From Acidobacteriota bacterium (GTDB taxonomy: Bacteria > Acidobacteriota > Terriglobia > Acidiferrales > UBA7541), in the NCBI GenBank assembly GCA_021818865.1, contig JAKASX010000013.1, positions 1-56,684 on the forward strand: a stretch of 56,684 nt of DNA, written 5' to 3'. The notes under the pieces are model-generated. The model saw only the letters and a program-made list of their open reading frames with translations. It ran no database searches and was not told where the DNA came from. Position numbers and translations under genes: made by a program. Every line of letters begins with the position of its first letter. The stretch's first letter is position 1. Shown here in pieces: positions 16,571 to 21,923 of this stretch.

Positions 16571-16894
16571 TCACTGATCCAGATTCACGCCGCAGCGGCG
16601 GCAGATCCTCGCGCGGGCGCCATCGGCAAGGAGGTTGCGCCCGATGCGGGTGTGCTTGCCGCAGCCCGGGCAGACCACCATGACGTTGGAAAGGTCGATC
16701 GAAGCTTCCTTTTCGACGATCCCGCCGCGCACGTTCTTCGACGGATTCGCCCGTGTGTGGCGCTTGATGATATTGACGCGCTCGACGGTGACCCGGCTGC
16801 CGGAGATGGCGAGTATTTTCCCGGTTTTTCCCTTATCGCGCCCGGCCATCACGCGCACGTTGTCGCCGCGGCGGAGCATCGTTTTCGTCGCCAC
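16571..16894 (-). CDS. rplX: 50S ribosomal protein L24
   Basis: Assembly-initiator protein with a KOW motif near the N-terminus ([21 protein letters not shown]). 107 residues. The C-terminal half contains [16 protein letters not shown]...RICRRCG, two CxxC pairs that could hold zinc, as in a subset of bacterial L24 proteins. An alternative in-frame start exists at Met6. Located between L14 and L5. Confidence 0.96.
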
Positions 16895-18225: not shown

Positions 18226-18882
18226 TCAGGCCACCGGCTCTTCCAGGCGCAGGCCGTCGGGGCGGTTTTCGCCGCGATAGACCCAGCACTTGACGCCGAT
18301 CACGCCGTACGTCGTGTAGGCCTGCGCGAAGCCGAAATCAATATCGGCGCTCAGGTTCTGCAGCGGCAACCGGCCCTGCAGATACCATTCCTTGCGGGCG
18401 ATTTCGGCGCCGTTCAACCGGCCGGCGACGCGCACCTTGATTCCCTTGCAGCCGAACCGCAACGCGGAATCGACCGCCTTGCGCATGGCGCGGCGGAAAG
18501 CGACGCGCTTTTCGAGCTGGAGCGCAATGGATTCGGCAACGAGCTGCGCATCGAGTTCGGGGCGATGCACTTCCTGAATATCGATATGCACTTCGCGCTT
18601 GGTGCGCTGCTGGACTTCGTTTTTCAGCTTCTCGATTTCCGAACCCTTGCGGCCGATGATGATGCCCGGCCGGGCGGTGTAGATGCGCACCACCAGCTTG
18701 TTGGCGGCGCGCTCGATATCGATGGCGCTGACGCCAGCCGATGCGAGCCGGCTCTTGAGGCGTTCGCGCAGCTGGATATCTTCATGCAGCAGGTCGGCGT
18801 ATTCCCGGCGAGCGAACCAGCGCGAGCGCCAGCCCTTGTTGTAGCCGAGCCGAAAACCGTAGGGATGGGTTTTCTGTCCCAT
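18226..18882 (-). CDS. rpsC: 30S ribosomal protein S3
   Basis: Head protein at the mRNA entry channel with helicase activity. 218 residues: [24 protein letters not shown], the KH domain with [17 protein letters not shown], and the C-terminal domain containing [24 protein letters not shown]. Normal size. It begins two bases after the L22 stop. Confidence 0.97.
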
Positions 18883-18884
18883 AG

Positions 18885-19415
18885 TTACTTCTTTTTCCCC
18901 CGTTTCTTCAATTTCTTCTCGATCTTTTCTTTCTTGCGCGCCTGCGCCTTCTGCTGCTGCCGTGCGGTTTCGAGCGCGCGCCGCATCCGCCCGCGGGTCG
19001 TCGTCGGCGCCTGGGCGCGTTCGACAGCCGAGCCGGCATGCTCGGCGACCGCGACGACGATATGGCTGGTGCGACGCACGTAGCCGTGGGCGCGGCCAAA
19101 CGGCGCGCCGCGGAACCGCTTGAGCACCGGCCCGGGATCCACCGAGCAGCGGCTGACGAAGAGGCGGTCCACGTCGAGCGAACTGCCGGCGTCCTCAGCC
19201 TTGCGCTGGACGTTGGCGATTGCGCTGCGCAGCGTCTTTTCGACGTCGCGTGCGACGCGCTTGCGCGCGGTGTGCAGCAGCGTGAGCGCGCGTTCGGCGC
19301 CTTCGCCGCGAATCAGATCGATGACCAGGCGCGCCTTCTGTGGAGACACGCGGACGTAGCGCGCGATCGCCACTCCTTCGAGCGGCAGCGGGACCGCCAT
19401 CGGCTCGGTTGCCAT
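18885..19415 (-). CDS. rplV: 50S ribosomal protein L22 with basic C-terminal tail
   Basis: Lines the peptide exit tunnel. The L22 core is [27 protein letters not shown]...[11 protein letters not shown], then the beta-hairpin [31 protein letters not shown]. The total is 176 residues against ~110-115. The last ~45 are a Lys/Arg/Gln-rich, probably helical tail (about residues 132-176) with no similarity to the core. Located between S19 and S3. Confidence 0.95.
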
Positions 19416-19418
19416 CGC

Positions 19419-19784
19419 TTAGCCCTGTCCTCCCGCCGGTTTGGCTCCGCCCGCGGCGGGCGCGGCAGCCGGAGCGGAGCCGGGAGCCGGCGCGCCGGCG
19501 ACGCCAGCGGCCTTTTCCATGGCGGCGTGCACGGCGTGGCCGCGGAAACTGCGCGTCGGAGAAAATTCGCCGAGCTTGTGCCCGACCATCTGTTCGGTGA
19601 TGTAGACGGGAATGAATTTCTTCCCGTTATGCACGGCGATCGTGTGGCCCACCATTTCCGGCAGGATCGTCGAGCGCCGCGACCACGTCTTCACCACTTT
19701 CTTTTCGTTCGTCTGGTTGAGCGCCTGCACCTTGCGGAACAGCGGCTCGTCGACGAACGGTCCCTTCTTGAGTGAACGCGCCAT
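19419..19784 (-). CDS. rpsS: 30S ribosomal protein S19 with Ala/Pro-rich tail
   Basis: Head protein forming bridges with the 50S subunit. The core [22 protein letters not shown]...[54 protein letters not shown] is textbook S19. The 121-residue length exceeds the usual ~93 by a low-complexity Ala/Pro/Gly tail. The ATG at 19784 is preferred over an upstream TTG because it restores the conserved N-terminus. Confidence 0.96.
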
Positions 19785-19794
19785 CAAGAACCCC

Positions 19795-20094
19795 TTACTC
19801 GAAAACCCGGCGCAGCTTCAGCCACTGCGGCCGCCGCACCCGGCGAAATCCGCGCACCGGACCGGGAACGCGGTGCGAGCGCGGGCAAAACGGGCAAACG
19901 AAGCGCGTATCGGGCGCGCTGGGCTGCATTTCCGCAACGACCGCCCAGCCCGACTTGCACACGCGGTAGAGCACGGTGGGCACCGGCACGGGCGCCTTGC
20001 GCACAGTCGGGCGCGCGGTCGCGCGAGCCGCAACCGACTGCCTGCGCCGCGCCGTCCGGCCCGTTCTCTTCGTCGCTCTTCGCGCCAATCGCAT
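19795..20094 (-). CDS. Unrecognised 99-residue basic protein between L2 and S19
   Basis: An ORF filling the space between rplB and rpsS, which are normally adjacent. The N-terminal half (residues 1-38) is almost entirely Arg/Ala/Thr/Lys/Pro. The C-terminal half has a single CPFC motif (Cys67, Cys70), an earlier Cys46 and His74, so a small zinc-knuckle-like fold is possible. It ends WLKLRRVFE. The ATG at 20094 is preceded by a purine-rich GAAGAG. Without this ORF the L2-S19 gap would be 330 bases in an operon otherwise packed to a few bases, which supports a real gene. Likely a ribosome- or RNA-associated protein by context and charge; no family recognised. Confidence 0.6.
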
Positions 20095-20114
20095 CTCTTC
20101 TCTACGCTCCTCGT

Positions 20115-20936
20115 TCAGGGCTTGCGCCGCTGGACGATATAGGAATCGCTCTGGGTCCGATGCCGCGTTTTGCCGCCGAGCGTCGGTTGCCCCCAAGGCG
20201 TTTGCGGATGGTTGCCCTTCACGCGGCCTTCGCCGCCGCCGTGCGGATGGTCCACCGGGTTCATCGCCACGCCGCGAACGGTCGGCCGTATGCCGAGCCA
20301 GCGCGAGCGGCCGGCCTTGCCAATGGTGACGTTTTCGTGGTCCACGTTGCCCACCTGGCCGATCGTCGCCATGCATTCGAGCCGCATCCGGCGAACCTCG
20401 CCCGAAGGCAGCTTCACCAAGGCGAAATCGCCTTCCTTACTGAGCAGTTGGGCCGCCGCACCCGCCGCGCGCACCATCTGGCCGCCGCGGCCGGGATAAA
20501 GTTCGATGTTGTGCACCATCGTGCCGGGCGGAATATTGCGCAGCGGCAGGCAATTGCCGGGCAGAATGTCAGCTTCGGCTCCGCTCAAGACCGCCATGCC
20601 GACTTCGAGGCCGATCGGGCGCAAGATGTAGCGCTTTTCGCCGTCGGCGTAGTGGAGCAGCGCGACGAGCGCCGAGCGGCTAGGATCGTATTCGACCGCG
20701 GCGACGCGGGCCGGCACGCCAATTTTGTCGCGCCGGAAATCGATGCGGCGATACATGCGCTTGTGGCCGCCGCCGCGATGCCACGAGCTGACCTCGCCGT
20801 GGTTGTTGCGGCCGCCGGAGCGCTTGAGCGGCTCGAGCAAAGCCTTTTCCGGCCGGTCCTTGGTAATCTCGCTCTTGTCGAGCACCGTGAGGAACCGGCG
20901 GGAAGCCGTATACGGTTTGAAGCCTTTCAGGGGCAT
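20115..20936 (-). CDS. rplB: 50S ribosomal protein L2
   Basis: Core large-subunit protein needed for subunit association and peptidyl transfer. 273 residues: [55 protein letters not shown], and the highly conserved [21 protein letters not shown] near the peptidyl-transferase centre. Length is standard. The gene downstream is the unknown 99-residue ORF instead of S19. Confidence 0.98.
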
Positions 20937-20973
20937 CGTTCAGCCCTCCGCCCGCTTGCTGGAAAAAGCGGAT

Positions 20974-21273
20974 TTACAGATTCTCGGCATACTCAATCAT
21001 CTTTTCTCCGGCCGCCAGGCGGACGTAGGCTTTTTTCCAATCCGCCCGGTAGCCGCCGCGCACTCCGCGCCGGCGAAATTTACCGTGAAAGTTTGCGGTG
21101 CGAACCGCGGCCACTTTCACCTTGAAAATTTTCTGCACCGCTTCCTTGATCTGGGTCTTGGTGGCGTGCGGCGCGACCTCGAAAACCACCGTTTGGAGCG
21201 TCTCCTTCGCCGCCAGCCCCTTTTCGGTGATGATCGGGCGGCGAATGATCTGGAATGCGTCGGTCCTCATCAC
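20974..21273 (-). CDS. rplW: 50S ribosomal protein L23
   Basis: Sits at the tunnel exit and docks trigger factor and SRP. 99 residues with DAFQIIRRPIITEKGLAAKETLQTVVFEVAPHATKTQIKEAVQKIFKVKVAAVRTANFHGKFRRRG, typical of L23. The start overlaps the end of L4 by four bases. Confidence 0.96.
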   Translation of the reverse strand: MMRTDAFQIIRRPIITEKGLAAKETLQTVVFEVAPHATKTQIKEAVQKIFKVKVAAVRTANFHGKFRRRGVRGGYRADWKKAYVRLAAGEKMIEYAENL

Positions 21274-21923
21274 TCGCCTCCGTTGGCCGAAGCCTTGCCG
21301 GCGAGCGAAGCGCCGAGCCGCAGCGCCGCTTCCTTCGAGAACACCAGCCGCTCGTGCCGCAGAACGTCGTAGGTGCCGAGTTCGGCCGGATGAGTCAGCT
21401 TGACGCCTTCGAGATTGCGGCTGGCGAGCTCGAGGTTGTGGTTTTCGCCTTCGGCCACCAGCAGCGCCGAACGCCCGGTTTCGTCGAGCCGGTCGAGAAT
21501 CTGGCGCAGCGCTTTCGATTTGTGCGTTTCGAGCGCCCAGCCGTCGACGACGGTGATCCGGCCTTCGGCGAGTTTCGCCGAAAGCGCCGAACAGAGCGCG
21601 CCGATCACCATCTTGCGCGGCAGCCGATAGGAATAATCGCGCGGCGACGGCCCATGCACCGTACCGCCGTGACGCCAGAGCGGCGAGCGGATCGAGCCCA
21701 TGCGGGCGCGCCCGGTTCCCTTCTGCCGCCAGAGCTTGCGCCCGGCGCCTTTCACTTCGCTGCGGGTTTTCACCTTGTGGGTGCCCGAGCGAGCCGCGGC
21801 GCGCTGCCAGCGCACCGCCGCGTGCAGCAGGTGCTGATTGACCGCCGCGCCAAAGACGGCCTCGGCGAGCTCGATTTCGCCCACCGGCTTGCCTTCGAGA
21901 TTGACCACGCTTACAACCGGCAT
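21270..21923 (-). CDS. rplD: 50S ribosomal protein L4
   Basis: Lines the exit tunnel with a long loop; in E. coli it also represses the S10 operon. 217 residues. The tunnel loop region TRSEVKGAGRKLWRQKGTGRARMGSIRSPLWRHGGTVHGP and PRKMVIGALCSALSAKLAEGRI are clear. Located between L3 and L23 with an overlapping end. Confidence 0.97.
   Translation of the reverse strand: MPVVSVVNLEGKPVGEIELAEAVFGAAVNQHLLHAAVRWQRAAARSGTHKVKTRSEVKGAGRKLWRQKGTGRARMGSIRSPLWRHGGTVHGPSPRDYSYRLPRKMVIGALCSALSAKLAEGRITVVDGWALETHKSKALRQILDRLDETGRSALLVAEGENHNLELASRNLEGVKLTHPAELGTYDVLRHERLVFSKEAALRLGASLAGKASANGGE

Follow-up and report, generated by a model that had tools for sequence, protein, structure and literature searches.

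The order of genes in the S10 operon is among the best preserved across bacteria. In the acidobacterial DNA under study (the window, a stretch of 56,684 nucleotides), an additional open reading frame, here called X, lies between rplB and rpsS of this operon. The features of this locus are the following:

20115..20936, minus strand: rplB (uL2), the upstream neighbour of X, identified by Pfam PF00181/PF03947
20095..20114, minus strand: rplB-X intergenic gap of 20 nt, with a purine-rich stretch, GAGGAGCGTAGAGAAGAG, preceding the start codon of X
19795..20094, minus strand: inserted gene X, encoding 99 aa that comprise a basic tail (residues 1-40) and a zinc-ribbon-like core of 59 residues (41-99), as defined by translation, orthologs and dN/dS
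19975..20094, minus strand: variable Arg/Lys/Ala/Pro-rich N-terminal tail of X, as defined by orthologs and the AlphaFold model
19798..19974, minus strand: conserved C-terminal core of X, residues 41-99, as defined by the alignment of 40 orthologs and the AlphaFold core model
19785..19794, minus strand: X-rpsS gap of 10 nt, with a GGGG run, similar to a ribosome-binding site, that abuts the stop codon of X
19419..19784, minus strand: rpsS (uS19), the downstream neighbour of X, identified by Pfam PF00203

The initial annotation had described a full-length ORF between rplB and rpsS, with Cys46, Cys67, Cys70, His74 and a CPFC motif in its product, and both points held: the ORF runs uninterrupted on the minus strand from an ATG at 20094 to a TAA at 19797-19795, Pfam confirmed the flanking genes, and the residues were located at the positions given. 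The encoded protein contains 26 Lys/Arg versus 3 Asp/Glu residues, with a calculated pI of 12. The rpsS ATG is placed at 19784, in such a way that TAAGGGG comprises the X stop codon and a Shine-Dalgarno-like GGGG for rpsS; the presence of this GGGG directly 3' of the stop suggests that translation of X and rpsS may be coupled. The spacing between both genes was 4-10 nt in most relatives, within a whole range of 4-126 nt. When the region 18800-21400 was scanned, no promoter-like sites were found on the operon strand, and the number of terminator-like sites was not above chance expectation. Because of the operon spacing and the lack of a nearby promoter, X is probably co-transcribed with its neighbours, from which it is separated by short distances only within the S10 operon. 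The C-terminus of uS19 (19419-19784) is extended by some 30 residues rich in Ala, Pro and Gly, and uL22 (18885-19415) ends in a long Lys/Arg-rich tail; tblastn matches end before these tails in most relatives outside the genus.

As many spurious ORFs arise in GC-rich DNA, X could be read as a non-functional chance ORF in a GC-rich intergenic region, and frame and codon conservation in relatives had been named beforehand as the test of this point. In an ortholog set of 44 loci with 40 distinct core sequences, obtained by genome search and contig scan, the frame stayed open, and both the start region at the N-terminus and a C-terminal core of 59 residues without gaps were kept. Substitutions in the core were distributed over codon positions 1, 2 and 3 as 21, 17 and 61%, and its median pairwise dN/dS was 0.14. 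With this dN/dS, the invariant residues described below and a start region and length conserved over 40 distinct loci, the probability of a chance ORF is negligible, and the conservation of the frame rules it out: X is a real gene.

Constraint on X was compared with that on L2 and S19 in the 19 loci where X, rplB and rpsS could all be aligned cleanly. The values for the X core (mean identity 0.804, dN/dS 0.127) were near those of L2 (0.825 and 0.117), whereas S19 was under tighter constraint (0.858 and 0.071). The distances between X sequences tracked those between L2 sequences (Spearman 0.73, reached by 0/999 permutations), the pattern that vertical inheritance together with the operon would produce.

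Within its own GTDB family, to which Acidobacteriota "gp2" and Candidatus Acidiferrum and kin belong, X was detected in 77 of the 89 genomes. Of the 12 remaining family genomes, 11 likewise had no match to rplB, and one had an rplB truncated at the contig end; as the absences coincide with a missing or cut rplB, X may be universal in the family. The order rplB-X-rpsS was found in every family locus whose context was checked, including those of two assemblies (G086 and G102) with two copies of X, each between rplB and rpsS, which are most simply explained by mixed strains. The orthologs that carry a name all come from MAGs of Acidobacteriota; several of these bear the label gp2, and one is Candidatus Acidiferrum typicum. 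Since the named members are all MAGs, the translation machinery of the family has probably not been studied.

Outside the family, X was not found in any of six genomes from two other families of the same order, and in 11 outside genomes (these six and five of other lineages in the class) the rplB-rpsS gap lacked X and measured between -4 and 23 nt, with one case of 130 nt. A search of 399 genomes of the class returned credible matches in family members only; three additional weak hits (E 5e-4 to 9e-3) were rejected as homologs, as they contained internal stop codons. In a profile search of a phylum sample of 396, the genome of origin was the sole match, and no homologs were found in viral contigs, plasmids or phages. 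The syntenic homologues with conserved cysteines that the initial annotation had proposed to look for do exist, in a single GTDB family only, and the simplest history is that the ancestor of that family gained X once.

The two parts of the protein differ markedly. The N-terminal tail ranges from 33 to 74 residues in the relatives and is composed of 22% Arg, 20% Ala, 12% Pro and 9% Lys; AlphaFold confidence was mostly low along the tail of X, which is probably disordered. The core is nearly fixed, with a net charge of about +10, and residues C46, C67, C70, H74, G49, W50, W91 and L94 were invariant in the 40 sequences, as were positions 63-71 (TRFVCPFCP), 73-76 and 78-83 (GPVRGF). AlphaFold predicted an all-β core of five strands, with only one of the five models being confident in each run. 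In the predicted topology (beta1-C46-beta2, beta3-C67xxC70-beta4), the candidate ligands are C46 in the turn of the first hairpin, C67-x2-C70 in that of the second, and H74 at the start of strand four. The core would thus have the layout of a zinc ribbon in which one CxxC pair is reduced to C-x2-G and a His provides the fourth ligand, and X probably binds zinc, as judged from the conserved residues and the model.

Searches with X gave no match above the curated cut-offs of Pfam and NCBIfam, and scans of PHROGs, Pfam and NCBIfam produced weak and inconsistent hits alone. The sole hit in the PDB sequence search was a non-significant CPFC stretch of L37A (E 0.43, 20 residues), and neither Foldseek nor VIA-align detected a PDB fold relative for the AlphaFold models of the full protein or of the core. 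In these searches, no ribosomal protein was a significant relative in sequence or fold. The comparison of X by hhalign with 14 neighbours of the S10/spc operons gave probabilities of at most 5.3%, and its origin as a paralog of an operon neighbour was rejected for lack of a significant profile-profile match. A literature search revealed nothing on X or on acidobacterial ribosome structure. Therefore X, which had been presented as unknown, has no family in the databases searched and constitutes a new one, a probable member of the lineage-specific ribosomal or ribosome-associated proteins.

The operon position, charge, constraint and universality of X point to a role in the ribosome, either as an integral component or in its assembly, and the gene combines lineage-wide conservation with r-protein-like constraint and absence outside the family. 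The explanation that we favour, with about even confidence, is that the family ancestor acquired X on one occasion, as a ribosomal protein, or one tightly associated with the ribosome, that is specific to this lineage. We infer that X would share a transcript with rplB and rpsS and that its translation would probably be coupled to theirs; its disordered Arg/Lys-rich tail would thread along rRNA, and its small β core, stabilized by a single metal ion (probably Zn2+) through C46, C67, C70 and H74, would dock onto an rRNA or protein surface. The narrower proposal that X is a stoichiometric ribosomal protein, universal in the family and with a zinc-binding fold so far unseen in ribosomes, can be made only tentatively. 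Against a ribosomal reading stand the low codon adaptation of X, the lack of a significant ribosomal-protein relative, the lack of a family-specific 23S indel at an obvious binding site and the single confident AlphaFold model out of five per run.

Regarding the first of these points, X ranked below all other operon genes tested in leave-one-out codon adaptation in 12 of 14 relatives, with a mean of 0.52 compared to 0.62-0.74 for the other genes; in its own window the value was 0.54. Hence, the suggestion in the initial annotation that X would be made in ribosomal-protein amounts was not supported; X is perhaps made below such amounts, and its low codon adaptation would fit a factor required in smaller quantities, or a young gene. 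Production below the r-protein level would also be in line with X being an assembly factor or another substoichiometric factor, which would bind pre-rRNA and leave before or after maturation. This possibility shares with the r-protein reading the evidence from operon, charge and conservation, but X has no resemblance to known assembly or hibernation factor families in the Pfam and NCBIfam scans, and assembly factors are only occasionally encoded in the S10 operon; we consider it unlikely, though of appreciable probability.

Two further functions were considered. The Arg/Lys/Ala/Pro-rich tail is similar to that of histone H1, and six of the 40 members showed a sub-threshold likeness to the Elf1 zinc ribbon (best E 0.1), as if X were a zinc ribbon binding DNA or RNA polymerase, i.e. 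a nucleoid or transcription factor whose place in the operon would serve only to link its expression to growth. However, the Elf1 resemblances were not significant, and the strict rplB-rpsS position at all loci checked speaks for a role in the ribosome, so that this function appears improbable. Even less probable is that X acts as an RNA-binding autoregulator of the S10 operon, tuning rpsS and the downstream genes; its placement inside the operon and its likely translational coupling to rpsS would suit such a regulator, but no Rfam element was found in the operon within the window, and the X-rpsS gap varies between 4 and 126 nt among relatives.

With respect to the favoured ribosomal or ribosome-associated role, the comparison of 23S rRNA from five family and four outside sequences revealed no family-specific indel, so no docking site for X is suggested by it. 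The 23S rRNA gene of the genome of origin contains a group I intron (RF00028, 55.7 bits) at 1187-1839 of L080 (G000:C42:3100-9800), minus strand, and a 171-aa ORF with VGFVDGEGCFYVGI at 1186-1701 of L080 resembles a LAGLIDADG homing endonuclease. The 23S sequence of one family MAG (L086, G005:C51:150-6850) is 67-73% identical to the others aligned and is perhaps foreign or misbinned. X as a substitute for a lost zinc r-protein (bL31, bL33, bL36 or uS14) was rejected: bL31 was present in all 10 genomes tested and bL33 in 8 of them, the genome of origin having both, and ORFs similar to bL36 and uS14 were found at their usual places in the window. As a separate observation, bS21 was unmatched in the genome of origin (G000), maybe due to an assembly gap, and present in nine compared genomes, five of them of the same family.

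The insertion of a gene into the S10 operon and its fixation throughout a family point to a remodelling, specific to this lineage, of the ribosome or of its assembly. For ribosome proteomics and cryo-EM, X offers a clear target, and it exemplifies a synteny-based route to other overlooked ribosomal proteins.

Compared to known systems, the top profile score among the operon neighbours corresponded to the C-terminal CxxC...CxxC stretch of uL24, at a non-significant hhalign probability of 5%, and there is no evidence of paralogy between this protein and X; uL24 itself (16571-16894) probably contains a separate zinc ribbon, with a CPGC...CRRC pair. The modelled core has a hairpin-knuckle arrangement similar to that of eL43 (L37A) and other ribosomal zinc ribbons, but its candidate ligands follow a C-x20-C-x2-C-x3-H pattern instead of two CxxC pairs, and no fold match was detected. 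A precedent for the favoured reading in terms of distribution is bL37, a small r-protein of the Mycobacterium smegmatis 70S ribosome limited to high-GC actinobacterial species (PMC5876184). Like X, bL37 is small, belongs to one bacterial lineage and was missed by annotation; bL37 is helical, in contrast to the all-β core with four invariant Cys/His of X, and no PDB chain matched X significantly in sequence. Similarly, bS22 and bL38 are restricted small r-proteins of Borrelia and Flavobacterium, for which the available text of PMC10618245 describes no Cys/His metal site, and no sequence similarity between them and X was found in the PDB sequence search. X would act in the manner of these proteins and of bL37. 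Of the two, bS22 is highly basic and bL38 contains β strands, features akin to those of X, and these proteins are likewise small and lineage-restricted and stayed unannotated, in Borrelia for instance, until the ribosomes were imaged (PMC10618245).
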